DNA of 64,000 bases from Aphrocallistes beatrix (taxonomy: Eukaryota; Porifera; Hexactinellida; Sceptrulophora; Aphrocallistidae). This document shows, in pieces, positions 39,676-63,747 of the stretch. Each line of letters opens with the position of its first letter. Position 1 is the first letter of the stretch. Made by a program: the position numbers and the translations under genes. Under the pieces are notes generated by a model. That model was not told the DNA's origin, ran no database searches, and worked only from the letters and a program-made list of their open reading frames with translations. The DNA is taken from positions 2,108,001 through 2,172,000 of the forward strand of contig OY725505.1 of the NCBI GenBank assembly GCA_963281255.1, in the 5' to 3' direction.

Positions 39676-40590
39676 CAGGAGCGTAGCTAGATATTTTAAA
39701 TTATTAAGCACTCCTCGAAATTGGCGCCCCACTTCCACCTGAAAATAAAATTTTGATAGCTATTTTTTCTGAATGTACTAATCAATTGTTCAATTATAAT
39801 TGATTAATCAAATGCGAGGAGAATGCGCCTATCACTCAGTGGATCAAAGTCGCGTAGAACACGTTCGACATCAACATCAACATTCCGGTGTAGATGCATC
39901 AGTGCTAATCCGGTCAAACGGCTTTGACACATTGTGTTCCGCAACCATGTTTTCAGCCTTTTCAGTGTGCTAAAAGACCGTTCTGCAGTTGCAGTGGATA
40001 CAGGCATTGTTGCCAAAATAGTAAGTGCACTGTAGATGTTTGGGAATGTGTCCTTAGACATACAAACTAGAGTTTCACACGCAGTTTTTGGTTTATCTTT
40101 CTCTGAAATTGTGCACCACTTACTTCTCCAAATTTTCAATTCCTTTTCATCATACTCACAATCTGATCTATAGGCATCGAATATATTTTTCTCTGCAATT
40201 TGAGATAGCTGCGACAAACGGCTTGGAATAAGGTACTGTGCAACAAGGCGTGGTCTCACTCTCTTTCTTCTTCTACACGTCTGGCTTTGGACATCTTGTA
40301 ATGGTAGCCAGACATCTTTCGCTTCTTTCCACTGTTTCTCGAGGCATCCATTTTATAATTATAGAAGCTAAATATCTAATTTACGAAACTGCTTATAAAC
40401 TAGTGATCATTAATTACATTTGTCTGTCGAACTCTGATATAATAAGGAAAATGTATGTGGTTCATTAATTCTACTGAAAAAGACAGGTTCAAAAAATCGA
40501 GTTTTGTTACCATGATTCATATTCTGCGCCCCTAGCTTCATAATTTTAGTACGCACGTGCGTACTGTGCGTAATGCTAGCTACGCCACTG
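39676..40590 (-). mobile_element. hAT transposon relic with perfect 8-bp duplication GTATGAGG
   Basis: CAGGAGCGTAGCTAG at the left; CTAGCTACGCCACTG at the right. GTATGAGG is found at 39668-39675 and 40591-40598. It encodes the C-terminal part of a hAT transposase on the minus strand (39804-40259). At 915 bp it is an internal-deletion copy; the N-terminal transposase region is gone. The 141-bp MITE at 18652-18792 shares its ends. Confidence 0.85.
39804..40259 (-). pseudogene. hAT transposase C-terminal fragment (dimerisation domain)
   Basis: About 150 codons: RPRLVAQYLIPSRLSQLSQI..., then FPNIYSALTILATMPVSTAT, AERSFSTLKRLKTWLRNTM and LTGLALMHLHRNVDVDVERV. The ATAERSFSTLKRLKTWLRN motif is diagnostic of the hAT C-terminal (hATC) dimerisation region, close to the THAP12/ZMYM-like transposase group. 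The catalytic domain is missing, so it cannot transpose on its own. The frame is open to the right but has lost its start. Confidence 0.85.
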
Positions 40591-42217: not shown

Positions 42218-42660
42218 CAGGGTGTTTCACAATTGATGTCGTATTACATAATTACATGTAACTTTAAAAATAATTGGAATACAGCTACAATTATTTACCA
42301 ATATATCCACCTTTGAGTTCAATACACGTTTTAATGCGATTTGGCATCCAATCTATTAATTTTCCCAAAAGGTCAGGTGAAATATTGGACCATGCAGTTT
42401 TTAGTTGATTCTCCAGCATTTTTAAATCTTTTGACTCACCCATTGAATCCAGATCATTTTTCAAATTCGACCATATATTCTCGATAGGATTCAAGTCTGG
42501 AGAGTTCGCTGGCCAGGTCCCCTTCGCCCCAAACCTGTTTATCCTTCCTCTTAACCAACATCGAGTAATTTTTGCGTTGTGAGCTGGGGCACCATCTTGT
42601 TGAAATATCGCACTTGACATACTTTTTAACATTTTCCGTTGCAAAACTATTTTTAGCCAT
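42218..42660 (-). pseudogene. Tc1-like transposase C-terminal fragment
   Basis: The minus-strand frame 42644-42291 reads FQQDGAPAHNAKITRCWLRG, then GTWPANSPDLNPIENIWSNL and MPNRIKTCIELKGGYIGK. It has the second catalytic Asp (QQDGAPAH) and the final Glu (SPDLNPIEN) of DD34E Tc1 transposases. The first Asp and DNA-binding region are absent. CAGGGTGTTTCACAATTGA at 42219 could be its terminal repeat. It is truncated on the upstream side near 42660. Confidence 0.8.
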
Positions 42661-42757
42661 ATTTCGTATAGAATATATAAACAGTGGAAGTGGAAAAGTT
42701 ATATTTATTGCACTATGTTGATACCTTTAGGCGATTAAGACAATCACATGTATATAT

Positions 42758-43787: not shown

Positions 43788-46700
43788 CTAATCCATGAAC
43801 TCTGGTTCGTCCGAATCAATGATTATTTTCCCACAATCATCACTTAAGACCTCATCATTCACAATGGCCACATCTCCAAGAAGCTCAATGCTCAGTTCGT
43901 CGTTAACATCTCCACAGGTTTCCTTGTTTGCGATGACTAGCTCCCCAGGTAGCGTCTTAACGGTTTCCGAGGGACTTGTACAATACTTGTCTTCGATTTC
44001 AGAGGAGTTATTATCACTGAAAAGAGAGGGTCGTTTCTCTACAGGATATTGTTTGCTCATAGAATCAGATGTTTCGTCCATTTCTGAAAGGAAAGGATTG
44101 TCAACTTTTGACTCAAGGAAGTTGAGCTCTTCGTAAACATTCTCGCAAGCTCTGTTGATATGACCCAGTACTGGTTGCTTTGGTACTACTACGTCGGAGA
44201 GTTTGTCTTGTTGATAGGGGGTGGCTCCTTCGCAACGATCTTCTTTAACTTCTTCATCATAAATAGGATTTGAAAAACCTATGTTGCTATTAATAGGTTC
44301 CGGTTTTGCGGACGGATGCAGGGGAAGGGGGATTTCTTCCAAATCAGGGTCATTTTCGCCATCTTTCGGTTTGCGATTCTTGCAATTACGCAGTTGAGTT
44401 CGAATTGTACTGTTACGAATGGCGTAGAGGAAAAGAAAGAGGATGCCCTGAAGTGCTATCAAGCTAGAATAGCCCCACCTATAGTATGGAATTTCTACAT
44501 AGATATCGATTATAGTGAGAGCCCAAGGAGCCAAAATGAACGGAGCTAGCATCATATGTCCTGATAGGGCGAAACGTGCGATGCGTACTTGTTCGATTTT
44601 TCGGATTGAACAACATCTGAAGATTGAGACTAACATACCGATTAATGCTACAAAGAAGATAACGGCAATAGGTTCAGTCATAGACCAGATGACGGAGCTT
44701 TTACTGGAGAACCAACAGTACTTATCTTGAATTCCAAGATCTTTCAAATCTAACACTCCGCGGAAAACAGCTAGAGGGATGGGTACAACCCAACCGAGTG
44801 CAAATAGAAGGATATGAATCCGTCTTTTCACCTTAATTAACACAAACCTGAAGCAGATGGCTGCACCTTCAGCCAGGAAACAAGTGGACGAAACGATTGA
44901 AAAGAAGTACACAATCTCAGCTATGATATTGCAATTGTCTCGAATCGGTTGATAGTTTATCAGTCCTATTAGATGGATAGTTACAGAGAGAGTGATGGCA
45001 AAACCCAAGCTGAACTGAGCAATGTAGATGTCGCTCTCTACTAATTTCTTCCCTAGCGAAATGATCAGGATGATGGCCAACGTCAAACAAAGCAGAGATA
45101 TTCCATACACTATATATATGATGTAGGTGAGAATGGGGTCAACCAGATTTGAATCCAGAATAACATCTTCAAACAGTACCATGAAGGTAGAGAGATGCGT
45201 ACTGGAGCAGGTGATGGAGTCGTGTGTCATGTTATAGACACTCAGTCCTTGTTCGCTCCATCCCTGCGTGGCGCTATCCCAATAAACACAGTATGGATTC
45301 AAATTGCTCTGTTCGGTGTTTAGAATGGAAAAGTTGAGGCGAATGGGGTCTTTGAGTTGATTCGGTAAGTTAGTGGCTAGTTCCACCATGGCTAGTGTGC
45401 TGGCTGGTTCGTATTCAGCATATGGCCCTGAGGAAGATTTGGTTAAAATTTGACCGAGCGTCTTGCTGTACAATACTGACACACCAAGTTTTGATTTGCT
45501 GTTGATAAGGGCGTTGATCAGTGATGGTGGGAACAAGATGCTATTCTCCTCGGAGGTGATATTCGTTTGATCGCAATCAGAGAGAACATTAATGGATGTT
45601 TTGCTGGTATCAATGTCGATTTCCTTCACCGTGAAATTGATGTTACTATTTATGAGGGAATCGCACGTGTTATTAGGTGTTTTAATGAAAGTTTGAGCAC
45701 TCAACGTTGAAAATAAGTTCAAGTTTCTGAAAAGGCTATTTGTCATATTCTGATAATTGCCTGAGAAGAATTCGACATTGTTGGGGCAAACGATTGTAGA
45801 GAATATGCAGAGGAATCTTTTAAAGGATGAACGAATTAGGTTAGATTTGTCTTCAGGATTCAATTTGCTTATCGAATGGAAGGCATATTCTGTAAGGTTC
45901 AGAGACAACATAATCTCTTGGGGACTCATAATCGATCTTCCACACACAATGTATGCAACATTTCTTAGCATCTCTGTGATATTCTGCGCATCTATCTGAG
46001 TTTGTTCCCCAAATATGTCATCATATTGATGTAGATAAATAAATAGAGCATCAAATGGTTCCCTCTGACACTCTGTCATATCGGGTGACTTCCAAACTCC
46101 GGATTGGGAACATTTGCGAGTTGTGTTTCCGATTACAAAGGTTGGATCTATGTATTGGCAAGGCATTACTGAGGTTTTGGAATATTCTGTGGCAGGCCAT
46201 TTTATTAGAAATATGGTTTCGCTTTCACATGTCAACTCCTTGGCTGGATATTGACAGTACCTACCCTTATACCCAAAGTAACAGGTGCAATCGAATTTGG
46301 TGATTCCATCAAGACACTTTCCTCCGTTCTCACACACAACGTCTGCACAGTCATTGATATTCACTTCACAGTTCTCCCCATTATATCCGTTTTCACATGA
46401 GCATGCATACTTATCTTGGACTGGATGACATGTTCCATGCTGACATGGTTTCTCGAGGCACTTGTTCGGGTATTCGCAATCAGGACCCAAATACTCACTA
46501 GTGCAGAAACATTCATAACTATCTAAGTGATCGATGCACGTTCCTCCATTTTGACAAGGGCCTGATGAACACTCATTCAACTCAAATTCGCAGAATCGAC
46601 CTGAATATCCTGCGTAACAGTTGCAAGTAAAGTTGTTAATCTGGTCAATGCATGTGCCATGCTCGCACTCAAGTGATAAGCATTCGTTAATCTCATTCTC

Positions 46701-49700
46701 GCAAATGATGCCCTCGTAGCCAGGTGAACACTCACACGTGAAGTCATTTGTATTTTCAGGTTTGCAAACTGCTCCGTTCTGGCATGGATCTTGTTCGTAG
46801 AGACTGAAGTATCCAAAGCATTCGAGTCCCCTTGGAGCTGTTAGAGCTGCGAAAAGTTGGGAGTATGGTCCATAACCAGCACTTGTCATAGCTCGCACTT
46901 GAATGCTGTAGAGAGTTGATGCTGTGAGGTTAGTGAGTTCTATCTCAGTGTTGGTACTGTTGTACAACATGCTGCTTGATTTGGTATTGCTGTCATTAGA
47001 TACAGTCATGAGGGATATTTCGTATTGTATTATCACACCATTTCTAGACGCTAATGGTAGTTCATTCCATTCCACATGAAACCCAGTTTCGATGTTAACT
47101 ATCTGTACATATTCGGGAGCAGCTGTTGGATTCGCTTCTGGCATTGTGATGGTAGCATATGATCTCGGACCGTTTCCCACAATAGTGGACTGATGAAGAC
47201 TGAAGTTGTATGTTACGCTAGGATGGAGGTCTGTGAATGTGTATTTTGTCCTATTGCTCTCAATATTAATAGCGTGTTTGTCAGTGTCTATCTTGGAACC
47301 TTGAAAAGTAATCGTTTGGTGTATTAAAATGCCGTTCCTTTCAACTAGAGGGATTTGAGACCATGTTAGCTGGACCGAAGAAGGAGACACAACTTCAACA
47401 GAAAAATCGCCTGGTGGTACAGTCGGAATATCTTCCCAAGTTTTAACAGTAAGCAAATTGCACTTCGGACTATTTCCAACTACATTAACTGCAAATAAAA
47501 CAATTGTGTATGCAGTATTTGGTTCTAGAAAATCAAGCGTGACTTCTGTAGTATTAATGGAAATTATTCTAAGTGAATTATTCAAATTGCGTACCCAGTA
47601 GTGAAGGATGTAATGGAGAATGTTCCCGTTTTGTTCCAGGATTGGAATGGGTTTCCATGTGACACGAATTTCGTCAGATGCAATAGCCGTCGCATTGACA
47701 TCTTGAGGAGGAGCAGTGGGAGCTATTGGGAGTGTGGTGACATTGATCGCAGTGCTGAAAGGTCCAATACCAACTATCGTCACAGCTGCTAACTGAATAA
47801 CATAAGGCATCGCCTCTTCCAAGTTTTGGAATGTATACTCGGTCACGTTGGTAGTCACTGTCATGTCGTTGATGTGTATTATGTAGCCAGTTATTATTCC
47901 GTTCTGATCTTGTTCATTCGGGGCAAACCAGTTCAGTTCAATCGAGGTTGTATTCGAGATGGAAGATATATACAATGGGGGACTCGTGGGGTTACTTTGT
48001 GCTGTTTCAACAGAGAAAACACTACTCGGACTGGAACCAGCACTATTGATGGCTTTCATACTGGCTCTGTAACGTGTGTATTCATTCAAGTCACTCACAG
48101 TTATCCCAGTATCGCTAGCACCACTGACCCTGTCAAACACAATGACACCTGTTGACTCCTCGGAAACGCTTATCTCATAGCCTGTTAAGGCCCCGTTCCG
48201 GACAGATTCTGGTGTGGCAGACCAGACAATGACGAAGGAAGTAGAGGTGATGGAGTTCACAGAGTGAATGCTTGGACCTTCCGAGGGTGCTGCCTCCAGG
48301 GTGGTGAAGTTGAGCGGGGAGGTGTAGGGACCAGTGCCTGGAGAGGTTTCAGCTGCGATCTTGACTGAGTAACGAGTGTTCGGCATCAATCCCAGTAGTG
48401 TGTAGCTGGTCAGTTCAGGGACTATTTTGATTGTGGAATGGAATGCAGAGGTGACCAACTCGTAGTGCTGAAGGATACCATTGATTGCATCTTCATTCAC
48501 AGGAGTCCATCCGAGAGTCACAGAAAGTGCAGTTGCATTCCTGATATGCAGTGAACTGGGCGCAACTTCTGGGATATCTTGTAAGGTTTGTTCCGTAATA
48601 GGCTGGCTTGCTGGACCAACACCAGCCTGTGTTTTCGCAGCAACTCGTAGGTTATACTGTCGGTATGGTTCCAAGTTAGTGAATGTAAACATGTCTATGT
48701 TCTGTCCGACTGACTGCATTGCAGTATAATTACTGGACACAGCTGCTATTTCAACATCGTACCCAGTGATAACTCCGTTCTGTCCCTGCCTCACAGGAGT
48801 CTTCCACATCACTTCAATCGCCGTTGAGGAATGTGCTATGGTCGTGACATCAGTTGGCGGGCTCGTCGGTGCATCTTCCATAGTTCGAATGGCTATCCAG
48901 TTGGTGTATGGCCCAGCTCCAACTGAAGTATAGACACGGACTTGAATTAGGTATGTTTCATCCGCTTCCAGGTTAGACACGCGGTACTGTGTGACATTGC
49001 CCACCTGCATAGTTCTATTGCTTCTATCTTCAAGAGTTCCAGCATAGTGTAACTCATAGGTAGTTATCTGTCCATTGATATCTGCTGCTATTGGAGCATT
49101 CCATGTCACCAGAATGGCTTCCTTGAAGACAGTAGCTTGCAGGTTTCTTGGCGCTCTATTAGGAACATCTTCATGTGTTCTTACCTCTACAGCAATGCTA
49201 TAGGGTCCCGCACCAATGGTATTATTTGCACGTACTTTGACTAAGTACCTTTCGAACTCTTCCAAGTTATTGACTGTTATAATAGTTTCGTTTGTTGAAT
49301 AGAGATGCGTTTGACTGTCGTGTTGTGTACCCTTCACACTGACTTCATATCTGAGGATGGCTCCGTTTGCTTGGTTCACCAAAAGAGGATTCCAGAATAT
49401 TCTTATACCAGTGTCATGAAGCGCAATAGCGTTGACAGATTGAGGATATCCAGTTGGTAAATCTTCTTGCGTTTGTTCCTCAATTGCCTCACATGGTCCA
49501 TCCCCCTCACTGTTAGAAGTACAGACGACAACCGTGTACACCTCTCCTTCCTCTAAACCAGTTAAGACAATGTTGGTATTAGTTGTTGTTGCGTTACGTA
49601 CACGAGTATCGAAATTATTCCCATAATACTGCAGCTTATATGTGACTGAGTCGCTATTCTGTTCTCGTATTAGTGGTGGATCCCAACTCAATGATAGAGA

Positions 49701-52700
49701 GGTAGTCTGTACGGAATCAATTGTCAGATCGATAGGTGCACCTGAAGGAACAGAGGGTAGTGTCTTCCGGATGATATCAACTGAATAAGGCCCTGATCCT
49801 ATCTTCGTCAAAATCCTTGATTTTATATGATATACGACGTTCTCTTGTAATTGAGTTAAGTTTGCGTTGACGCTACTAATCCAATTGGTGTCTGGCAGCA
49901 CATCTATTGTGTTGACAGTTTGGTCGATAGACTCCCCATAATACACGACTTGGTATTCAGTTAGTATTCCGTTAATACCATCAATAACAGGTGGAGTCAG
50001 GCTAATGCTAATTTCATTGGCTCCGACATTTGTGACTTGTATTTGTGGGGGACTAATTGGCCTTGATTCATTCGTCGTTGCGACTATCACGTCACTGTAT
50101 GGACCTACCCCGTGGGATGTAGATGCGGCTACTTTAACCTGATACTCTGTGAATTCATTCAAACTCACTATGCTGGCTAGCGTTGCTGTTGTAGGAGAGA
50201 GGGTAGTGTAAGAAGACGCGCTCTCCATTCGGTACTGCAGGGTGTAGCTGGTTATGATCCCATTACGATCAGTCGATGGCGGTGCTGCCCATTCAACCCT
50301 GAGAGTGGTCGCTGTGGAAGCCGTGACTCGTACATTACTCGGGGGAGCACTGGGGCGGTTGGTGGCTGTTCTTAAAGTGTAATTATTTGAATTGACTGAA
50401 TAGAGTGTACCAGTGGTCGTTACGTAGAATCGATACAAGCGGTAGGGCTTCAAGCTGGTGCTAGTAGGGTAGTTACTGGTAGTCGGTGAATTCACTTCAT
50501 ATTTCCCATTTCCAAAGCTCAAGTCTAATGCGTGTATCTGATTCGTCACATTCACACTATATGTGGTAGGATCGAATTGGATTCTGGTCCGGAATTGTGC
50601 ATAACTAGAACTGTAACTATTGAGTGAAATGGATGTCGTAAATGTAATTATTTCGCAGGAGTAATTACTGGAGGGATAATAGTTGGTACCACAACTGCAG
50701 TCATAACTTCCAACCGTATTTGTACACGTTTGTTCACACAAATGGGTTCCTGATGAGCATTCGTCGATGTCAACGCATCTCTCTGGGTTCTGTAGCTTTT
50801 GGTATCCGGGCAAACAGTCACATCTGTATGTTCCTGGTTGATTGACGCACTTCTTTGGAGATGGACATAAGTTCGAATTTTCAGTACATTCGTCTACATC
50901 GAGGCAAGTTGAATGATCGGAATCAAGTCGATACCCAGAAATACATCCACATGTGTAACTTCCTTCGCTATTGGTGCATACTTGGTTGCATAACCTTGGC
51001 ACCTGTTCACACTCATTGATATCTTCACATGCTTTTCCGTCAGAAGCAAGAGTGTATCCCGTGCTACAGCGACATGAGTAAGTGCCAACACTATTCTCAC
51101 AGTAATGCTCACAACCATGCGAGCTTGACGTACATTCATTGATGTCATCACATGAATGTAGATTCCCAGAAAGGTAGTAGCCGCTTCGACAGGAGCAACT
51201 GAAGGATCCAGCTGTATTCGTGCAGTCATGTTCACACCCGCCATTATTAGAAGCGCACTCGTTGGTATCGAGACATGACCTTCGATTGGACGAGAGATAG
51301 TAACCCGTGTTACAGGTACACGTGAACGAACCAGCATTGTTTGTACAAGTGTGAGCACAGCCTCCGTTACTACTGGAGCACTCGTTGATATCGTTACAGT
51401 ATCTTCCGCTCGACAATGTATACCCAGTGTTACAACTACATGTGAAGGATCCTACAGTGTTCCTACAAATTTGGGCGCAGTTGTCTGTGTTACGTGTGCA
51501 CTCATTGATATCGACACAAGTTTTTCTATTCGAAGATAGATCATAGCCAGCATTACACCTGCAATAATACGAGCCAGCAGTGTTATAGCATAAATGGTTG
51601 CAGCCATGACTGCTCGTAGAGCACTCATTGCTATCGTAGCATGACTTCCCATTAGACCCTAGGGAGTATCCGGTTCTACAAGTGCAATAATATGATCCAA
51701 TCGTGTTTGTACAACTGTGATCACACCCATCTGTGTTCCGAGAGCATTCATTAATATCATTCTCGCAAATGATACCGTCATAACCAGGTGAACACTCACA
51801 CGCGAAGTTATCTGTTGTATTTTCAGGTTTGCAAACTGCTCCGTTCTGGCATGGATCTTGTTCGTAGAGACTGAAGTATCCAAAGCATTCGAGTCCTTTT
51901 GGAGCTGTTAGAGCTACAAAGAGTTGGGAGTGTGGTCCATAGCCAGCACTTGTCATAGCTCGCACTTGAATGCTGTAGAGAGTTGATGCTGTGAGGTTAG
52001 TGAGTCCTATCTCAGTGTTGGTACTGTTGAACAACATGCTGCTTACATTGGTATTGCTGTCATTAGACACAGTCATGAGGGATATTTCGTATTGTATTAT
52101 CACACCATTTCTAGACGCTAATGGTAGTTCATTCCATTCCACATGAAACCCAGTTTCGATGTTAACTATCTGTACATATTCGGGAGCAGCTGTTGGATTC
52201 GCTTCTGGCATTGTGATGGTAGCATATGATCTCGGACCGTTTCCCACAATAGTGGACTGATGAAGACTGAAGTTGTATGTTACGCTAGGATGGAGGTCTG
52301 TGAATGTGTATTTTGTCCTATTGCTCTCAATATTAATAGCGTGTTTGTCAGTGTCTATCTTGGAACCTTGAAAAGTAATCGTTTGGTGTATTAAAATGCC
52401 GTTCCTTTCAACTAGAGGGATTTGAGACCATGTTAGCTGGACCGAAGAAGGAGACACAACTTCAACAGAAAAATCGCCTGGTGGTACAGTCGGAATATCT
52501 TCCCAAGTTTTAACAGTAAGCAAATTGCACTTCGGACTATTTCCAACTACATTAACTGCAAATAAAACAATTGTGTATGCAGTATTTGGTTCTAGAAAAT
52601 CAAGCGTGACTTCTGTAGTATTAATGGAAATTATTCTAAGTGAATTATTCAAATTGCGTACCCAGTAGTGAAGGATGTAATGGAGAATGTTCCCGTTTTG

Positions 52701-55700
52701 TTCCAGGATTGGAATGGGTTTCCATGTGACACGAATTTCGTCAGATGCAATAGCCGTCGCATTGACATCTTGAGGAGGAGCAGTGGGAGCTATTGGGAGT
52801 GTGGTGACATTGATCGCAGTGCTGAAAGGTCCAATACCAACTATCGTCACAGCTGCTAACTGAATAACATAAGGCATCGCCTCTTCCAAGTTTTGGAATG
52901 TATACTCGGTCACGTTGGTAGTCACTGTCATGTCGTTGATGTGTATTATGTAGCCAGTTATTATTCCGTTCTGATCTTGTTCATTCGGGGCAAACCAGTT
53001 CAGTTCAATCGAGGTTGTATTCGAGATGGAAGATATATACAATGGGGGACTCGTGGGGTTACTTTGTGCTGTTTCAACAGAGAAAACACTACTCGGACTG
53101 GAACCAGCATTATTGATGGCTTTCACACTGGCTCTGTAACGTGTGTATTCATTCAAGTCACTAACAGTTATCCTAGTATCGTTAGCACCACTAACACTGT
53201 CAAACACAATGACACCTGTTGACTGCTCGGAAACGCTTATCTCATAGCCTGTTAAGGCCCCGTTCCGGACAGATTCTGGCGTGGCAGACCAGACAATGAC
53301 GAAGGAAGTAGAGGTGATGGAGTTCACAGAGTGAATGCTTGGACCTTCCGAGGGTGCTGCCTCCAGGGTGGTGAAGTTGAGCGGGGAGGTGTAGGGACCA
53401 GTGCCTGGAGAGGTTTCAGCTGCGATCTTGACTGAGTAACGAGTGTTCGGCATCAATCCCAGTAGTGTGTAGCTGGTCAGTTCAGGGTCTACTTTGATTG
53501 TGGAATGGGATGCAGAGGTGACCAACTCGTAGTGCTGAAGGATACCATTGATTGCATCTTCATTCACAGGAGTCCATCCGAGAGTCACAGAAAGTGCAGT
53601 TGCATTCCTGATATGCAGTGAGCTGGGCGCAACTTCTGGGATATCTTGTAAGGTTTGTTTCGTAATAGGCTGGCTTGCTGGACCAACACCAGCCTGTGTT
53701 TTCGCAGCAACTCGTAGGCTATACTGTCGGTATGGTTCCAAGTTAGTGAATGTAACCATGTCTATGTTCTGTCCGACTGACTGCATTGCAGTATAATTAC
53801 TGGACACAGCTGCTATTTCAACATCGTACCCAGTGATAACTCCGTTCTGTCCCTGCCTCACAGGAGTCTTCCACATCACTTCAATCGCCGTTGAGGAATG
53901 TGCTATGGTCGTGACATCAGTTGGCGGACTTGTCGGTGCATCTTCCATAGTTCGAATGGCTATCCAGTTGGTGTATGGCCCAGCTCCAACTGAAGTATAG
54001 ACACGGACTTGAATTAGGTATGTTTCATCCGCTTCCAGGTTAGACACGCGGTACTGTGTGACATTGCCCACCTGCATAGTTCTATTGCTTCTATCTTCAA
54101 GAGTTCCAGCATAGTGTAACTCATAGGTAGTTATCTGTCCATTGATATCTGCTGCTATTGGAGCATTCCATGTCACCAGAATGGCTTCCTTGAAGACAGT
54201 AGCTTGCAGGTTTCTTGGCGCTCCATTAGGAACATCTTCATGTGTTCTTACCTCTACAGCAATGCTATAGGGTCCCGCACCAATGGTATTATTTGCACGT
54301 ACTTTGACTAAGTACCTTTCGTACTCTTCCAAGTTATTGACTGTTATCATAGTTTCGTTTGTTGAATAGAGATGCGTTTGACTGTCGTGTTGTGTACCCT
54401 TCACACTGACTTCATATCTGAGGATGGCTCCGTTTGCTTGGTTCGCCAAAAGAGGATTCCAGAATATTCTTATACCAGTGTCATGAAGCGCAGTAGCGTT
54501 GACAGATTGAGGATATCCAGTTGGTAAATCTTCTTGCGTTTGTTCCTCAATTGCCTCACATGGTCCATCCCCCTCACTGTTAGAAGTACAGACGACAACC
54601 GTGTACACCTCTCCTTCCTCTAAACCAGTTAAGACAATGTTGGTATTAGTTGTTGTTGCGTTACGTACACGAGTATCGAAATTATTCCCATAATACTGCA
54701 GCTTATATGTGACTGAGTCGCTATTCTGTTCTCGTATTAGTGGTGGATCCCAACTCAATGATAGAGAGGTAGTCTGTACGGAATCAATTGTCAGATCGAT
54801 AGGTGCACCTGAAGGAACAGAGGGTAGTGTCTTCCGGATGATATCAACTGAATAAGGCCCTGATCCTATCTTCGTCAAAATCCTTGATTTTATATGATAT
54901 ACGACGTTCTCTTGTAATTGAGTTAAGTTTGCGTTGACGCTACTAATCCAATTGGTGTCTGGCAGCACATCTATTGTGTTGACAGTTTGGTCGATAGACT
55001 CCCCATAATACACGACTTGGTATTCAGTTAGTATTCCGTTAATACCATCAATAACAGGTGGAGTCAGGCTAATGCTAATTTCATTGGCTCCGACATTTGT
55101 GACTTGTATTTGTGGGGGACTAATTGGCCTTGATTCATTCGTCGTTGCGACTATCACGTCACTGTATGGACCTACCCCGTGGGATGTAGATGCGGCTACT
55201 TTAACCTGATACTCTGTGAATTCATTCAAACTCACTATGCTGGCTAGCGTTGCTGTTGTAGGAGAGAGGGTAGTGTAAGAAGACGCGCTCTCCATTCGGT
55301 ACTGCAGGGTGTAGCTGGTTATGATCCCATTACGATCAGTCGATGGCGGTGTTGCCCATTCAACCCTGAGAGTGGTCGCTGTGGAAGCCGTGACTCGTAC
55401 ATTACTCGGGGGAGCACTGGGGCGGTTGGTGGCTGTTCTTAAAGTGTAATTATTTGAATTGACTGAATAGAGTGTACCAGTGGTCGTTACGTAGAATCGA
55501 TACAAGCGGTAGGGCTTCAAGCTGGTGCTAGTAGGGTAGTTACTGGTAGTCGGTGAATTCACTTCATATTTCCCATTTCCAAAGCTCAAGTCTAATGCGT
55601 GTATCTGATTCGTCACATTCACACTATATGTGGTAGGATCGAATTGGATTCTGGTCCGGAATTGTGCATAACTAGAACTGTAACTATTGAGTGAAATGGA

Positions 55701-58700
55701 TGTCGTAAATGTAATTATTTCGCAGGAGTAATTACTGGAGGGATAATAGTTGGTACCACAACTGCAGTCATAACTTCCAACCGTATTTGTACACGTTTGT
55801 TCACACAAATGGGTTCCTGATGAGCATTCGTCGATGTCAACGCATCTCTCTGGGTTCTGTAGCTTTTGGTATCCGGGCAAACAGTCACATCTGTATGTTC
55901 CTGGTTGATTGACGCACTTCTTTGGAGATGGACATAAGTTCGAATTTTCAGTACATTCGTCTACATCGAGGCAAGTTGAATTATCGGAATCAAATCTATA
56001 CCCAGAAGTACATCCACATGTGTAACTTCCTTCGCTATTGGTGCATACTTGGTTGCATAAACTTGGCACCTGTTCACACTCATTGATATCTTCACATGCT
56101 TTTCCGTCAGAAGCAAGAGTGTATCCTGTGCTACAGCGACATGAGTAAGTGCCAACACTATTCTCACAGTAATGCTCACAACCATGCGAGTTTGACGTAC
56201 ATTCATTGATGTCATTACATGAATGTAGATTCCCAGAAAGGTAGTAGCCGCTTCGACAGGAGCAACTGAAGGATCCAGCTGTATTCGTGCAGTTGTGTTC
56301 ACACCCACCATTATTAGACGCACATTCGTTGGTATCGAGACATGACCTTCGATTGGAAGCGAGATAGTAACCTGTATTACAGGTACACGTGAATGAACCA
56401 GCATTGTTTGTACAAGTGTGAGCACAGCCTCCGTTACTACTGGAGCACTCATTGACATCTTCACATGCTTTTCCGTCAGAAGCAAGAGTGTATCCCGTGC
56501 TACAGCGACATGAGTAAGTGCCAACACTATTCTCACAGTAATGCTCACAACCATGCGAGTTTGACGTACATTCATTGATGTCATTACATGAATGTAGATT
56601 CCCAGAAAGGTAGTAGCCGCTTCGACAGGAGCAACTGAAGGATCCAGCTGTATTCGTGCAGTTGTGTTCACACCCACCATTATTAGACGCACATTCGTTG
56701 GTATCGAGACATGACCTTCGATTGGAAGCGAGATAGTAACCTGTATTACAGGTACACGTGAATGAACCAGCATTGTTTGTACAAGTGTGAGCACAGCCTC
56801 CGTTACTACTGGAGCACTCATTGACATCTTCACATGCTTTTCCGTCAGAAGCAAGAGTGTATCCCGTGCTACAGCGACATGAGTAAGTGCCAACACTATT
56901 CTCACAGTAATGCTCACAACCATGCGAGTTTGACGTACATTCATTGATGTCATTACATGAATGTAGATTCCCAGAAAGGTAGTAGCCGCTTTGACAGGAG
57001 CAACTGAAGGATCCAGCTGTATTCGTGCAGTTGTGTTCACACCCACCATTATTAGACGCACATTCGTTGGTATCGAGACATGACCTTCGATTGGAAGCGA
57101 GATAGTAACCTGTATTACAGGTACACGTGAATGAACCAGCATTGTTTGTACAAGTGTGAGCACAGCCTCCGTTACTACTGGAGCACTCATTGACATCTTC
57201 ACATGCTTTTCCGTCAGAAGCAAGAGTGTATCCCGTGCTACAGCGACATGAGTAAGTGCCAACACTATTCTCACAGTAATGCTCACAACCATGCGAGTTT
57301 GACGTACATTCATTGATGTCATTACATGAATGTAGATTCCCAGAAAGGTAGTAGCCGCTTCGACAGGAGCAACTGAAAGATCCAGCTGTATTTGTGCAGT
57401 TGTGTTCACACCCACCATTATTAGACGCACATTCGTTGGTATCGAGACATGACCTTCGATTGGAAGCGAGATAGTAACCTGTATTACAGGTACACGTGAA
57501 AGAACCAACATTGTTTGTACAAGTGTGAGCACAGCCTCCGTTACTGCTGGAGCACTCATTGACATCTTCACACGCTTTCCCGTCAGAAGCAAGAGTGTAT
57601 CCCGTGCTACAGCGACATGAGTAAGTGCCAACACTATTCTCACAGTAATGCTCACAACCATGCGAGCTTGAGGTACATTCATTGATGTCATTACATGAAT
57701 ATAGATTCCTAGAAAGGTAGTAGCCGCTTCGACAGGAGCAACTGAAGGATCCAGCTGTATTCGTGCAGTTGTGTTCACACCCACCATTATTAGACGCACA
57801 TTCGTTGGTATCGAGACATGACCTTCGATTGGAAGCGAGATAGTAACCTGTATTACAGGTACACGTGAACGAACCAACATTGTTTGTACAAGTGTGAGCA
57901 CAGCCTCCGTTACTACTGGAGCACTCATTGACATCTTCACACGCTTTTCCGTCAGAAGCAAGAGTGTATCCCGTGCTACAGCGACATGAGTAAGTGCCAA
58001 CACTATTCTCACAGTAATGCTCACAACCATGCGAGCTTGAGGTACATTCATTGATGTCATTACATGAATATAGATTCCTAGAAAGGTAGTAGCCGCTTCG
58101 ACAGGAGCAACTGAAGGATCCAGCTGTATTCGTGCAGTCGTGTTCACACCCGCCATTATTAGACGCACATTCGTTGGTATCGAGACATGACCTTCGATTG
58201 GAAGCGAGATAGTAACCTGTATTACAGGTACACGTGAACGAACCAACATTGTTTGTACAAGTGTGAGCACAGCCTCCGTTACTGCTGGAGCACTCATTGA
58301 TATCTTCACATGCTTTTCCATCAGAAGCAAGAGTGTATCCCGTGCTACAGCGACATGAGTAAGTGCCAACACTATTCTCACAGTAATGCTCACAACCATG
58401 CGAGCTTGAGCTACATTCATTGATGTCATTACATGAATGTAGATTCCCAGAAAGGTAGTAGCCGCTTCGACAGAAGCAACTGAAGGATCCAGCTGTATTC
58501 GTGCAGTCGTGTTCACACCCGCCATTATTAGACGCACATTCGTTGGTATCGAGACATAACCTTCGATTGGACGAGAGATAGTAACCCGTGTTACAGGTAC
58601 ACGTGAATGAACCAACATTGTTTGTACAAGTGTGAGCACAGCCTCCGTTACTACTGGAGCACTCGTTGATATCGTTACAGTATCTTCCGCTCGACAATGT

Positions 58701-61700
58701 ATACCCAGTGTTACAACTACATGTGAAGGATCCTGCAGTGTTCCGACAAATTTGGGCGCAGTTGTCTGTGTCACGTGAGCACTCATTGATATCGACACAT
58801 GTTTTTCTATCCGAAGATAGTTCATAGCCAGCATTACACCTGCAATAATACGAGCCAGCAGTGTTATAGCATAAATGGTTGCAGCCATGACTGCTCGTAG
58901 AGCACTCATTGCTATCGTAGCATGACTTCCCATTAGACCCTAGGGAGTATCCGGTTCTACAAGTGCAATAATATGATCCAATCGTGTTTGTACAACTGTG
59001 ATCACACCCATCTGTGTTCCGAGAGCATTCATTAATATCATTGCAACTCTTCCTATTAGAACTCAGGTCATAACCTGTTCTGCAACTACAGCTGTATGAC
59101 CCTTGCGTGTTTGTACAATAGTGGGCACACCCATCGGTATTATAATAACATTCGTTATAATCATAGCATGAAGAACCTGATCTGTAGTAACCAGTTTTGC
59201 AAGAACATGTATATCCTCCTCCGTTGATAACATTATTGCAGTTCTGCGTCGCTGAATTACAACTGTGTTGGCCACTTGTACATTCGTTCAGATCTAAATA
59301 TATTATCTCAATTAATAAATATAAGAGAATGTCTTTCTTCGTCGTGAATTAATTTGCTTTCATTTCATGACATCTAAACAATGAATAAATACGTAAATAA
59401 GTGATTGAATATATCATGTTCGGATATAGTCGTTGAAATCAAGTTGCTGCCGCGGCGACAATTTTTCAAATTTGTTTATTTTTTGATACATATAAACACC
59501 AAATTGCTAAATACCGTATAAGGCGTATATCTTCGAATAGTAGCCGGGGTTATTAATTGTTACCACCTGAAGGAAAATTAATATTTCGGATATTTTGAGA
59601 CTTTTCAATGAATATAACCACATGAGTGAATCAAGAAATGGTAGAAGGGAATAATTTAATGTTAATTTAATGTTAATCTTTTTTCTATTTATGTACAAAA
59701 AAGGTTTAGCACCCACTTTGGGGGGGGGGGCGATTATTCGAGGGCAGGCTACTATACCTACTATTCAAGTATATACAGCATGCATATATGATGATTTTGA
59801 TGATATCAAATTCGAATCAGCACATTTAAATATCCCTAAAGTCGTTGCAACCATATTATTATTATTACCATTATTCTTATCATCCTCAAAGTTGTAGATT
59901 TAAATTTGGACAACAGACAAGCAAACAAACATACAAATGGACAAATCATTGAGATTTAATAATTACGGTGTAGATAATAAAGAGATTGAAATGGCTTACT
60001 AGTTGTATGTTAATAATTATGCTAATTACAGTATGTCCCATAATTATTTAGAATTTTGCTTGATTCAATCTTTTTCGATATCTGACTAGATTAATTAAAA
60101 CCCTACTTGGACTCGGAATGTTGAAGTGAAAGTGAAAGTTAATTGAAAGTGAATTGAAAGTGAAAACGAAAGTGGGATTTTTCTATTTAGACTACCCCAA
60201 GTCCAAGTAGGGTTAAGCTCTAATACTGGTACTTTTATTAATCAACCTTATGTCAATAATCGTTGATAATGTAGTAATACACTAAAACCTATTCTAAAAT
60301 GGATTTTTCCAATTTTTATATAATGATGACGTCATGATGATGCGACCAAAATTGCATAGTTTCTTAATCTGTATTTAACTATTCATATATTAGGTCCATA
60401 TAATTGTAATGACTCAAACTGAGAAGAGAGCTCGGATTAGAGTGCTATTAGACGCTAAAAAACATACACCTAGAGAAATTTCTGATCTTATTGGTGTTTC
60501 TCTTGCTACAGTCTACAACGTTAAATCCAGGATTCAGGCGATATCTCAATGAAACATCGCAAGGGAGGTGGCAGACCCTCTAAATTGGCTCCACTTCTAC
60601 GAAACAGCATTGCACAACAAATACGAAGGACGCCATATATTTCTTTAAGATCTATGGCAAGCAAATGTCCAGTTGATGTGTCAAAAAATACCGTAGCTCG
60701 ATGTTTAATAAAATTAAACTACACTAAGCCGTACCCCACCCCAGTTCCGATGTTATCTGAAAAAAATCGTTCTAATAGGGTTGAATGGGCTTGCAGGAAT
60801 ATCAGAAACTTCTGGCAAGACGCAATCTTCGCTGATGAAGCATCCATCTGGATAAATAGAGGTCGTGTTCGCATGTGGACCAAAAATGGCACCAGCAGAA
60901 CTACACCAACAGTTAAACATACCCAGAAAATCCATATTTGGGCCGCATTTTCGTCAGCTGGGACATTCCCACTATATATTTTTAGGGAGAATCTAACTGC
61001 CCAGATATTTTGCGAGATTTTAAATGGACATTTGTTACAACAGGCACGTGTTTTACATGGAGAGAAGTGGTTTCTCGGCCAAGATAATGACCTGAAACAT
61101 ACTGCTAAGATAACCAAGGCTTGGATGGAAGAGAATATGCCACAAAATACCATAGACTGGCCCCAGTCAGAGTCCAGATGTCAACCCCATCGAGAACTTG
61201 TTTGCGTGGTTGAAACAGGAATTGATTAAAAGAGGTCCAGCTACTTTAAAAGCTCTCAAGGATGATGTTGTTGCTATATGGGAAAGTATAGATGTATTTT
61301 TTCTCGAGCCATATTGGAGTTCGATGCCAAAGAGGTGCTAACTATTGATAGATAACAATGGCTCTAAAATAAAATATTAAACTACACAATATCAGTTATC
61401 TTATAAAAGCAGGCGAACAATGTTACTAATTAACAAAAAAAATTCTGAGTCATTATTAAAATTCTAAATAATTATGGGACATACTGTATGTTGTTGACAA
61501 TCAGGGTTGTTTTGATTTAAATCATTTGATTTAAATCATTGATTTAAATCATGATTTAAATCACTTAAAAAAATCAAAATCCTGTTATTTGATTTTTTTG
61601 GAATATATTTCCTTTTAGAAATTTCTTCAATGTTTCTTATTTGATAAAAGTGTGATGGCTTTTGTACATTAAAAAGTTAGGAATAGATTAGGTATAGTTA

Positions 61701-63747
61701 AAGCAGGAAAATTAGTATTTATATACAAGCTGCTGAATACTCATAAATAATTTCTTCTAGTTCTACGTACATTAATACATAGGTACTCTAATTTTTTCGC
61801 TTTCTTCATTAATATTTATTCTAATTTTTCGTTTTCTTTCATTAAAACATTCTATTATACGTAGATAATGTTAAATTTATTCTAGAATTCTACTTGATTA
61901 TGAGTAGATAAAAATAAACAGAAGACTAAATGATTATAGATAAAAATATATAAAAATCTAATTAAAATCAAAAAATCTGATTTAAATCAAATAAATCATG
62001 ATTTTTGATTTTTTTTAAAAAATCATGATTTTTTTCCAACCCTGCCGCGGGCGGCGGGCGGCAGTGAATGACAATGGATACTTCCAAATGAGTATAGTCG
62101 AGCACAGTTATTGCTTAATGCAATTAGCTCGACTATACTCACTTGGCAATTTATACGGCTTCACTCTCTCAATAGAAATCATTGTACTACAGCACAATAG
62201 ACTCATTATTATTATTAATATTTCAAAACTATAAAAAAGATTATCTGTTATCTTCACACATTTTGATGAATTTTGAAAAATTTGCTAAAGACTAGCTATC
62301 AACAGTTGATATAGCGTTTTTAGACATGTAGATTCTGAATATCGTATTTTCGAATCTAAGTATGTATACGATAAATATTTGATTTGCTATTGTTTACAAC
62401 GGATGCATAGGGTAAACAAATATCAAAAATGTGTTGTCTCGACAATTTAAATTTAGTAAGTTGATTCGGACAAAAGAACTCAAAAATTATTTAATCTGGA
62501 ATGACTGCTAGTATATTAATCGATTCAGTATCGTTTAGGGCAGTGGTTCCCAACCTTTATGAGCCCAAGATTACCTTCTGAATCTAAATGCATCACAAGA
62601 TCTACTCGGCAAGCGCATCTGATCGATCGGTTGGGAACCCTGCCGGCCTGCCCTATTCACACTTCACAACAATTTACATATGAGTAGCCTTATTTGTAGA
62701 CAGTTTACAAAACGAAAAATGAGACGTAATAGAAACTAATAATATTTCATAAACTGTCTATACAGGTTTCCTATAGTTGATTGCGATTGACAGGTTGGGG
62801 ACCCCTGGTTTAGGCTATCTTTGAAACATCAAATATGATAAATATCATGCAAATTGAATGTGATATTAAATATCTAAAAAATCATTATATGATACTTGGT
62901 CATAAATTATCATTGTCCCCGAAAGCTCCCTCTAAACTGTTTGAAATCAATTATTTAGTATTAGTTGTGGTGGGTTTTTTAAATTCATACATATGTAGTT
63001 ATCTATTCATTTGATTTCAACTCGGATAAGAATCATTGTCAAAATGACCTGGGGGATTATACGAGTATGGCGCCCCAATACAACTAGTTTAGATTTAATA
63101 TAAGAATCAAAATTTAATTAAATATACTTACCGTTATTGCAATTCGTTCCTGTCCATCCGCTATTGCAAACCTTGCTTCCAGAACTAGAGCAAGTGTAGT
63201 GTCCATAGTAGTCATTACGTGCCCTGCAATATACGGTGCATAGGTTGCCATAGTAATTAGTATTGCACGTGAACCGATATTTTATTTCAAAATAGCGACC
63301 GCTGCCACTAAGTGTGTGTCTCAATGTTGCCCAAGTACTCGATGTCCAATATCCATCATACTGCAAGGCTCCTAGGTAATCATCTGCATTCGAATCATCA
63401 TCCCATCCTATCATATCCACTCTAAACCGCCCCTAGTAGAAATAATATATTTGTCAAAACAAATTTGAGAGTCGGAAATGAAGTCTATCACTTACCGAAA
63501 AACTACTAGAAGTCGTATAATTATACACCTGGTTCATTGTTTGCGAATTTCCGCTCGCCCTGTAATAGTTAGTGGTATAACTACCACAACTGCTGTAGCT
63601 GCTGTAGCACTCTTTCCATTTGAAAAAGAAAAAAACATCACATTCACCTCCGAACCATCCATCACAATTGCTTCCATCGTCGAGCTTTCCCCGCACATCA
63701 TACTTGTAATAATTCACAGAAAATGTCCCTGCGTTCTCTACTACCAC
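43788..63747 (-). CDS. Delta-like / adhesion-GPCR fusion protein (MNNL-DSL-EGF-FN3-HormR-GAIN/GPS-7TM), 5' partial
   Basis: Three exons: 63747-63496, 63432-63132 and 59293-43788 (stop TAG). Splices are GT-AG and phases fit (0, then 1: G|AT gives the Asp of DLNEC). More than 5,300 residues are seen. In order: MNNL, DSL, 29 EGF-type repeats (to ~55,735), a beta-rich linker, 12 FN3 (55,430-51,900), 10 EGF (to ~50,670), the linker again, 12 FN3 (50,363-46,833), 5 EGF (to ~46,255), a hormone-receptor motif (~46,245-46,065, PCQYIDP...CSQSGVWKSPDMTEC), GAIN with GPS (~46,060-45,165) and seven helices (~45,155-44,380). The helices show FLAEGAAICFRFV (TM3), GWVVPIPLAV (TM4), YCWFS (ECL2) and LQGILFLFLY (TM7), all adhesion-GPCR marks. 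A ~200-residue acidic tail follows. The head resembles Notch ligands, so cell-cell signalling at the plasma membrane is inferred. The signal-peptide exon is not resolved. Confidence 0.85.
46682..59030 (-). repeat. Tandem duplication of a ~5.06-kb EGF+FN3 unit inside the giant exon
   Basis: Copy 2 is 46,682-51,745 and copy 1 51,746-~59,030. Landmarks are offset by 5,067 bp (TTTCGCAGGA at 50,651 and 55,718; TTCGAGTCC at 46,821 and 51,888). Each unit runs: three EGFs (SRNTDGC, STSSHGC, TDNC), a three-EGF trio, three more EGFs, a linker, 12 FN3, and one EGF (EQDPCQNGAVC). The FN3 blocks differ at only about two dozen residues by eye. Copy 1 is longer because its trio is present seven times. The unit length keeps the reading frame. 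Confidence 0.9.
56090..58673 (-). repeat. Seven tandem copies of a 369-bp (123-codon, three-EGF) unit
   Basis: The unit encodes three calcium-binding EGF repeats beginning NECSSSNGGC, NECASNNGGC and NEC(T/S)S(S/N)SHGC, each 41 residues. The span is close to 7 x 369. Neighbouring units are almost identical, and C-terminal units share NNAGSF where the others have NNVGSF, a sign of recent spread. Because the length is a multiple of three, the alternative frame also stays open for 990 codons (58933-55961); that frame is not a gene. Confidence 0.9.
60095..60216. mobile_element. TTAA-type MITE with GAAANN repeats, copy 3 (nested in Tc1)
   Basis: TTAAAACCCTACTTGGACTC at the left; AAGTCCAAGTAGGGTTAA at the right. 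The interior plus strand has GAAAGTGAAAGT and GAAAGTGAAAACGAAA. It is in the opposite orientation to the copies at 5.0 and 6.0 kb and lies inside the Tc1 element. Confidence 0.6.
60409..61341 (+). pseudogene. Tc1-like DD34E transposase, two frame breaks
   Basis: The start ATG 60409 gives TEKRARIRVLLDAKKHTPRE and ISDLIGVSLATVYNVKSRIQ, the first helix-turn-helix. The frame ends TGA at 60550-60552, overlapping ATG 60549, where the GRPSKL AT-hook-like linker and second HTH continue (frame to 61229). IFADEASIW (first Asp) and FLGQDNDLKHTAK (second Asp) follow. Near 61163 the reading moves again to give SPDVNPIENLFAWLKQELI (final Glu) and the end SSMPKRC. All catalytic residues are present, but two single-base shifts make this copy inactive unless frameshifting occurs. 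Confidence 0.8.
61502..62044. mobile_element. hAT-like element with GATTTAAATCAT arrays
   Basis: CAGGGTTGTTTTGATTTAAA at the left, ATGATTTTTTTCCAACCCTG at the right. Self-complementary GATTTAAATC units lie near each end. No matching 8-bp flanks, so the duplication is lost or one side was rearranged. No ORF. Confidence 0.5.
62085..62140. repeat. CCAAGTGAGTAT hairpin repeat, copy 3
   Basis: CCAAATGAGTATAGTCGAGC faces AGCTCGACTATACTCACTTGG-type sequence with a ~16-bp loop; a strong hairpin. A short GC-rich patch (GCGGGCGGCGGGCGGC) precedes it at 62045-62060. Confidence 0.65.
62541..62807. mobile_element. hAT-type MITE with near-perfect 8-bp duplication GTTTAGG(G/C)
   Basis: CAGTGGTTCCCAACCTTTAT at the left, CAGGTTGGGGACCCCTG at the right; flanks GTTTAGGG (62533-62540) and GTTTAGGC (62808-62815). 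Ends are close to those of 41408-41579. Confidence 0.75.
63132..63432 (-). other. Exon encoding the end of MNNL and a canonical DSL domain
   Basis: 301 nt, phase 0 in, phase 1 out (donor GTAAGT at 63131-63126). The DSL part reads FTCNTNYYGNLCTVYC, then RARNDYYGHYTC and SGSKVCNSGWTGTNC. All six cysteines, the RND.YGHY core and the GWxGxxC end agree with the DSL consensus that contacts Notch in Delta, Serrate and LAG-2. It is followed directly by an EGF repeat after splicing, as in Notch ligands. Confidence 0.85.
63496..63747 (-). other. Exon encoding MNNL (Notch-ligand N-terminal, C2-like) domain
   Basis: 252 nt, phase 0 at both ends (acceptor tttgatttag, donor GTAAGTG). It reads ENAGTFSVNYYKYDVRGKLD, then GECDVFFFFKWKEC and SQTMNQVYNYTTSSSFS. 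The GxFxxxxxxYxxxxGxxxxGxxCD...FFxxxxxxC pattern is that of the MNNL domain at the N terminus of Delta/Jagged proteins; the domain runs on into the next exon (GRFRVDMIGWDDD). A possible 30-nt upstream microexon (63845-63816, followed by GTAAGACC) is in phase, but too short to be confident about. Confidence 0.75.

Follow-up and report, generated by a model that had tools for sequence, protein, structure and literature searches.

Structure of gene W

The window, a 64,000-nucleotide stretch of contig OY725505.1 of the glass sponge Aphrocallistes beatrix, carries on its minus strand three of the four exons of a gene that we call W; the first exon lies beyond the window's end. Spliced at GT-AG sites, the four-exon model gives a stop-free product of 5369 amino acids (aa), which runs from a signal peptide through a C2/MNNL-like domain, a DSL domain, EGF and FN3 repeats, a hormone-receptor motif (HRM) and a GAIN region to a GPS, seven helices and a tail. 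Every intron is GT-AG and the junction phases are 0, 0 and 1, in agreement with an original prediction from the sequence of the window that the MNNL and DSL exons join one large exon in phases 0 and 1 (63747-63496, 63432-63132 and 59293-43788). These three exons stand as predicted, and the gene is longer than had been claimed by the signal-peptide exon, which sits in a block aligning 84% with a paralogous gene, P. The introns measure 2940, 63 and 3838 bp in W and 4848, 75 and 3269 bp in P. By eye, the Tc1-type transposase within intron 3 of W has no look-alike among the open reading frames (ORFs) listed for the 3269-bp intron 3 of P.

Table: Exons, domains and intron 3 of gene W (window numbering unless stated otherwise)
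Feature	Position	Strand	Remarks
Exon 1, signal peptide MVLSIGLILSFLSLQFL	G000:C19:2174738-2174688 (66738-66688 in continued window numbering)	-	17 codons; phase-0 donor GTAAGT; beyond window end, 2940 bp upstream of exon 2
Exon 2, N-terminal half of C2/MNNL-like domain	63496..63747	-	Phase 0 at both ends
Exon 3 (63432-63132), first part, second half of C2	63268..63432	-	Acidic loop GWDDDSNADD
Exon 3, second part, DSL	63133..63267	-	Exon end 63132; phase-1 donor GTAAGT
Intron 3, 3838 bp	59294..63131	-	Tc1-type transposase ORF inside, 60525-61229, + strand
Exon 4, 15.5 kb, EGF-FN3-HRM-GAIN-GPS-7TM-tail	59293-43788	-	Single exon
First EGF block, mostly calcium-binding EGF	55722..59293	-	369-bp tandem array, 7 copies, 56077-58673
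First FN3 block	51897..55721	-	Exon 4
Second EGF block	50655..51896	-	Exon 4
Second FN3 block	46830..50654	-	Near-identical to first FN3 block: 1314 codons, dS 0.012
Third EGF block	46239..46829	-	Exon 4
HRM	46062..46235	-	Pfam 24.4 bits, slightly under cut-off 26.2
GAIN region including GPS	45174..46061 (GPS 45296-45174)	-	Predicted cleavage HL/S between 45192 and 45191
Seven helices, 7tm_2	44418..45113	-	Pfam 49.2 bits, cut-off 20.6; 7 hydrophobic segments by hydropathy
Cytoplasmic tail and stop codon	43788..44417	-	Contains SNPIYDEE; NPIY found in Oopsacas P0010 too

That W encodes one protein, an adhesion GPCR bearing the head of a Notch ligand, as had been predicted, is well supported by the gene structure and by its relatives P, a gene on contig C1 and the Oopsacas minuta protein P0010 (described below). 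Exon 4 lies in an open frame of 5186 codons on the minus strand (59348 to 43788), in which 19 open codons, none of them ATG, separate the upstream stop from the acceptor and the first in-frame ATG comes 1332 codons inside the exon. It must therefore follow another coding exon that ends in a phase-1 donor, as the DSL exon does. The rival reading, in which a small C2-DSL protein, secreted or membrane-bound, is encoded next to a separate EGF-FN3 adhesion GPCR, could draw on the 3.8-kb intron 3 with its transposase ORF. It could also draw on the early stop that retention of this intron would produce, which makes a short soluble protein conceivable: beyond the donor, the frame of the DSL exon continues as NNGKYI* and stops after four more codons, and that of P likewise ends RYGKYI. 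Such a gene pair is nevertheless highly improbable, given that exon 4 lacks an initiation codon close to its 5′ end, that the phase-1 donor and acceptor fit each other, that the same order recurs in P and in the C1 gene, and that DSL and seven helices lie within one Oopsacas protein model. In the C1 copy, an 82-bp intron after DSL leaves hardly any space for a gene boundary. Misassembly as the origin of the fusion is unsupported, as P, the C1 gene and the model of the second species agree.

Ligand head and receptor body

In the spliced head of W, the DSL domain scores 60.1 bits against a Pfam cut-off of 24.2. A six-frame search of the genome (100.5 Mb, 28 contigs) placed it first, at 63.3 bits, among 6 DSL places with E up to 0.001, with P second at 60.6 bits; a seventh, weak place lies on contig C11. 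Jagged-2 matches W residues 104-200, that is, the second half of C2 and the DSL, with an E value of 1.4e-16. The more N-terminal domain is less clear-cut. Pfam calls no MNNL in W, P or the C1 gene, and profile comparison (hhalign) of their C2 region with three Delta-like C2 regions from this genome gives a moderate 83% probability; for these two reasons we use the name C2/MNNL-like. This tentative assignment draws on the cysteine pattern, the position of the exons, the Jagged-2 match and the resemblance to the sponge's own Delta-like genes, as well as on a related C2 region on contig C10 that scores 20.4 bits for MNNL, below the cut-off of 22.5. Of the predicted domain content as a whole, EGF and FN3 are present, DSL, GPS and 7tm_2 lie above their Pfam cut-offs, the HRM falls just under its own, and MNNL and GAIN go uncalled in W.

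The Notch-binding face of Jagged-1 is reported to comprise F199, R201, R203, D205 and F207 (PMC3415683). By alignment, W and P carry Y, R, R, D and Y at these positions and so keep three of the five residues, the other two being Phe-to-Tyr changes. Among the five sponge DSLs compared (the Delta-like pair at C19:3.42 Mb, apparently split by an intron, was left out), Oopsacas minuta reads Y K R D Y, the C1 gene Y L R D S, with two of the five residues changed non-conservatively, and a Delta-like gene on contig C13 F I Q S Q. The residue of W aligned to F207 is Tyr; an F207A change in Jagged-1 is described as lowering Notch binding to background (PMC3888931). The same source includes D140 and D144 in the calcium loop through which Jagged-1 recognizes lipid, and on our alignment the acidic loop GWDDDSNADD of W would occupy the place of this loop. 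Directly after the DSL, W has an ordinary calcium-binding EGF (DLNECTSG), and the atypical EGF1/EGF2 of vertebrate ligands is absent there (PF21700, 13 bits, cut-off 27).

In the receptor part of W, the GPS scores 34.8 bits (Pfam cut-off 22.5) and bears the motif CSSTHLSTFMVL, which reads CASTHLSTFMVL in P and CSSAHLSTFMVL in P0010. The best PDB matches of the 834-aa C-terminal piece are ADGRD1 (E 1.2e-18 over GPS-7TM) and ADGRL3 (E 9.7e-18), and the latrophilin-3 chain 6vhh_B aligns to residues 13-379 of this piece (E 1.9e-5). The consensus for GPS cleavage is HL/S-T; W, P and Oopsacas have HL/S at the predicted site, and the C1 gene and C1b, its inverted 7TM neighbour, have HA/T. We take SNPIYDEE in the tail of W to be an NPxY motif. 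The near-identical internal duplication that spans the FN3 blocks could be a recent event or an assembly effect.

Relatives in two glass sponges

Paralog P lies at C19:2403453-2386547, about 227 kb from W between matching exons, and encodes a product of 2904 aa. Its signal, C2, DSL and large exons have the same phases as those of W, and its signal exon, MILPIGLILSFLFLHFL, ends in the donor GTAAGTTT, as in W. The gene on contig C1 (C1:753121-760453), a diverged copy, shows the order signal peptide, C2, DSL, EGF, FN3, EGF, HRM, GAIN and GPS, followed by one helix; here Pfam calls GAIN, GPS and HRM. Its introns measure 68, 151 and 82 bp, the last of them following the DSL, and the phase of its signal exon is that of W. 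In a search with the C1 head, C1b gave no head match. In the stretches compared, which in many cases end 1.5 kb beyond a 7tm_2 match, the C1 gene ranks second only to P in likeness to W over HRM-GAIN-GPS and FN3, and C1 and C13 are about level as matches to the head of W. C2/MNNL-like exons with no DSL match occur three times on contig C10 and also on contig C3, and on contig C4 a C2-like head with no DSL match stands in front of GAIN-7TM exons. C2-bearing receptors may therefore form a wider class in this genome.

A protein-database query comprising the HRM-GAIN-7TM part retrieved 10 proteins among 3079 candidates. One of them, P0010, is deposited at NCBI as an 'EGF-like domain-containing protein' of 2788 aa from the glass sponge Oopsacas minuta, the genes of which are reported to have been predicted by Braker/Augustus with mapped RNA-seq reads (PMC10280926). 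It is 55% identical over the 601-aa query, which spans mid-HRM to just beyond the helices, and unites within one chain a signal-like start (MRISIGILFSCIFLLNV), the second half of C2, DSL, EGF, FN3 and 7tm_2 (39.6 bits). Relative to W, it has just one EGF block and one FN3 block ahead of the EGFs proximal to the 7TM part, and its model lacks the MNNL-N exon, which is skipped, lost or missed; skipping would keep the frame, as this exon is phase 0 at both ends in W, P and the C1 gene. The combination of MNNL and DSL with 7tm_2 in one chain, to which the original prediction had pointed, is thus present in P0010 as regards DSL and 7tm_2 and incomplete as regards MNNL. Pfam reports no DSL, GPS, GAIN or HRM on full-length P0010, and yet gives DSL 60.7 bits when residues 1-134 are scanned, so a whole-protein domain table can overlook a DSL; its HRM-GAIN-GPS is seen by alignment to W (57.1%) and by the GPS motif given above. 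Of the other proteins retrieved, P0001 appears to be the open frame of P from the same animal, with matching ends, and P0002-P0009 are unnamed ENA open frames that start in EGF or FN3 and do not show the heads. With residues 1-215 of P as a head query, none was found among 555 candidates; P0010, at 2788 aa and with a strong DSL match, probably should have appeared there, so this is likely a false negative, to which we give no weight. Residues 1-140 of P0010 returned nothing except P0010 itself among 23 candidates.

Between P and P0010, the DSL is the most conserved segment (75.6% identity), followed by the first EGF block (71.8%), the post-FN3 EGFs (67.0%), HRM-GAIN (59.1%), FN3 (57.3%), the helices (56.4%), the second C2 half (52.7%), the signal exon (35.3%) and the tail (32.8%). 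The same holds among the segments compared for W (DSL 71.1%, post-FN3 EGFs 67.5%, helices 56.8%), the first EGF block having been compared for P only. That the DSL is the best conserved speaks for a function. The domain order is beyond chance, to judge from its repetition in P and from that of DSL together with EGF-FN3-7TM in a second species. The best explanation of these sequence comparisons is that the gene family predates the split from Oopsacas minuta, with a Notch-ligand head already on an adhesion-GPCR body.

The 5′ part of the gene probably derives from a Delta: read by eye, the Delta-like gene on C13 has the same boundaries flanking the DSL exon as W, with phase 0 at the C2/DSL junction and a phase-1 donor on the other side of the DSL. 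In the ancestral gene, the 5′ exons of a Delta would have been joined, at a phase-1 EGF boundary, to an EGF-FN3 adhesion GPCR, and the C1 gene would have lost helices later.

Between W and P, the 183 codons of the head exons have a dN/dS of 0.75, with 0.61 for the DSL core (7 changes) and 0.73 for the second C2 half (63% identical); the signal exon, of 17 codons, reaches 1.48. Values for the body are 0.28 for the first EGFs, 0.12 for the post-FN3 EGF, 0.29-0.30 for FN3, 0.46 for HRM-GAIN, 0.69 for the helices and 0.44 for the tail. The head, mainly its C2, changes faster than the body, which fits diversification or relaxed constraint and goes against a strongly constrained head. This bears on a rival reading that accepts the fusion and holds that the head is no longer a Notch ligand, its C2-DSL being a tip for general adhesion or for lipid binding on an ordinary adhesion GPCR. 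Along with the head dN/dS between the paralogs, the missing atypical EGF1/EGF2 after the DSL, the C2/MNNL-like exons devoid of DSL on C10 and C3, the C2-like head of the C4 GAIN-7TM receptor and the phospholipid binding reported for the Jagged C2 (PMC3888931) all favour it. However, the DSL ranks first in conservation between P and Oopsacas, W and P hold the two top DSL scores of the six in the genome, and their Notch-binding face is better kept than that of C1 or C13. We regard a general adhesion tip as possible but rather unlikely.

A proposed force-sensitive ligand-receptor and its nearest precedents

The reading that we favour, and to which we give somewhat better than even chances that do not exclude its rivals, is that W and its relatives form a sponge fusion family acting as force-sensitive ligand-receptors that report their own engagement. 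In this mechanism, a signal-peptided, calcium-stiffened ectodomain would display the DSL at the cell surface, where it could engage the Notch receptor of an adjacent cell. GAIN would cut itself at HL/S, leaving the ligand-bearing fragment held to the seven helices only non-covalently. Pull on bound Notch would then load this same linkage, and could either activate Notch or part the two fragments. Separation would expose the tethered agonist STFMVLFED and trigger G-protein signalling in the cell that presents the ligand. For W, the originally proposed presentation of a Notch ligand, coupling to G proteins and release of the ligand by GPS cleavage are suggested here by conserved residues alone. 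Counting against this explanation are the Oopsacas model that has no MNNL-N, the Pfam-negative MNNL and GAIN, the ordinary EGF after the DSL, the Tyr at F207, the fast head, and the single helix and altered face of C1.

Another possible arrangement is that the aGPCR-borne DSL acts as a decoy or cis-modulator: it would bind a canonical Delta or Notch of the same cell and tune signalling by the ectodomain only, with no G-protein output. C. elegans LAT-1 is reported to work in this way, via its N terminus alone, in cis and independently of G proteins (PMC12255766); separate Delta-like genes are present in the sponge genome; and the C1 gene keeps head, GAIN and GPS with one helix, so that, if it is functional, an ectodomain works without seven helices. 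Against this, HL/S is retained and the helices are 56-57% identical to those of Oopsacas, similar to the 57-59% of the GAIN region, which suggests that the receptor part still signals. A purely cis-acting role is in our view improbable.

Under the force-sensitive reading, a cell might use one and the same molecule to display the ligand and to receive a signal in return. A bidirectional contact receptor of this kind, in which the force of Notch engagement on a self-cleaved GAIN would send a G-protein signal back, and which would possibly be part of glass-sponge contact signalling after Wnt loss, is a tentative proposal. Studies of two glass sponges report that Notch is present and Wnt lost (PMC5684314, PMC10280926). 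In the genome analysed here, Notch-type LNR repeats occur at two places, and Wnt gave no match in a search of a kind that is no proof of absence. Notch ligands and adhesion GPCRs both act at cell contacts, and a natural chain holding both, in two sponges, is what would be expected if they function together. W thus provides a concrete protein for asking, in animals reported to have no Wnt genes, whether engagement of Notch is sensed via a GPCR by the cell that presents the ligand.

The literature searched, which excludes most subscription papers and preprints, yielded no description of an adhesion GPCR with a DSL domain, in agreement with the original claim that the full order was undescribed. 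The main text of an adhesion-GPCR survey (PMC12716839) has 0 occurrences of DSL, MNNL and Notch; in the accessible portions of two further papers, DSL occurs only for LAT-1/LAG-2 (PMC13197933) or 0 times (PMC4302439). As far as we found, then, a homolog is public as the Oopsacas sequence but undescribed.

With the canonical Notch ligands (Delta, Serrate/Jagged and LAG-2), W has in common the signal peptide, the C2/MNNL-like domain, a six-cysteine DSL, most of the Notch-binding face and EGF repeats next to it. It differs from them in having seven helices instead of one, a GPS and GAIN region, FN3 blocks, an ordinary calcium-binding EGF and an MNNL under the Pfam threshold. With EGF/FN3 adhesion GPCRs, including those reported from sponges (PMC4302439), it shares the HRM-like motif, the GPS with HL/S and 7tm_2, to which it adds the C2-DSL head. 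The nearest precedent is the C. elegans latrophilin LAT-1, which is reported to bind the DSL ligand LAG-2 in cis and to raise Notch activity (PMC12255766). There, as in W, an adhesion GPCR and a DSL ligand are linked on the same cell, but as separate proteins that bind each other.

Repeat and duplication structure of the receptor gene

The tandem array of 369-bp units in the window's C2/MNNL-DSL-headed receptor gene encodes calcium-binding EGF triplets, and EGF-like regular-expression matches number 39 in this gene versus 11 in its paralog about 227 kb away. The gene also contains an in-frame EGF–FN3 duplication. Because its two FN3 blocks differ at a dS of only 0.012 (1314 codons compared), the duplication is either very recent or an assembly effect.

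Feature coordinates (window, or genome contig C1–C11)
Feature	Position	Strand	Details
369-bp tandem array	window 56077-58673		7 copies, 98% match
EGF–FN3 duplication, in frame	window 46830-55721
Transposase remnant	window 60525-61229	+
Transposase remnant	window 37764-38852	+
Transposase remnant	window 29628-31076	+
Transposase remnant	window 39804-40352	-
Transposase remnant	window 42291-42698	-
C2-DSL-headed gene	C1:753121-760453		FN3, HRM, GAIN, GPS, one helix
Further adhesion GPCR	C4:5889801-5894300		read by eye
C2/MNNL-like exons, no DSL match	C10:4126601-4129600
C2/MNNL-like exons, no DSL match	C10:3486-3538 kb
C2/MNNL-like exons, no DSL match	C3:6009-6018 kb
Possible DSL-like stretch	C11:3496534-3496668		46% identical, query 151-191, E 3.7e-4

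Related heads elsewhere in the genome

The GPS of the C1 gene reads HA/T; its product thus combines DSL and GAIN domains but lacks the seven helices. By-eye reading of the C4 receptor gave a signal peptide, C2/MNNL-like exons, on which Pfam made no call, a short EGF-like remnant in the DSL position, a GPS reading HL/T and 7TM. A large cluster of 7tm_2 exons also lies on C4. In the C10 copy that was read, Ser-rich sequence and a hydrophobic segment follow the C2/MNNL-like exons.

Pathway components and transposase remnants

Delta-like genes and Notch LNR repeats were found in the same genome. The whole-genome search returned no match for Wnt, a missing match that does not prove absence; Notch parts without a Wnt match are the pattern reported for glass sponges. 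The transposase remnants tabulated for the window comprise Tc1/mariner types, a TNP-like RNase H domain as well as a hAT dimerisation region.
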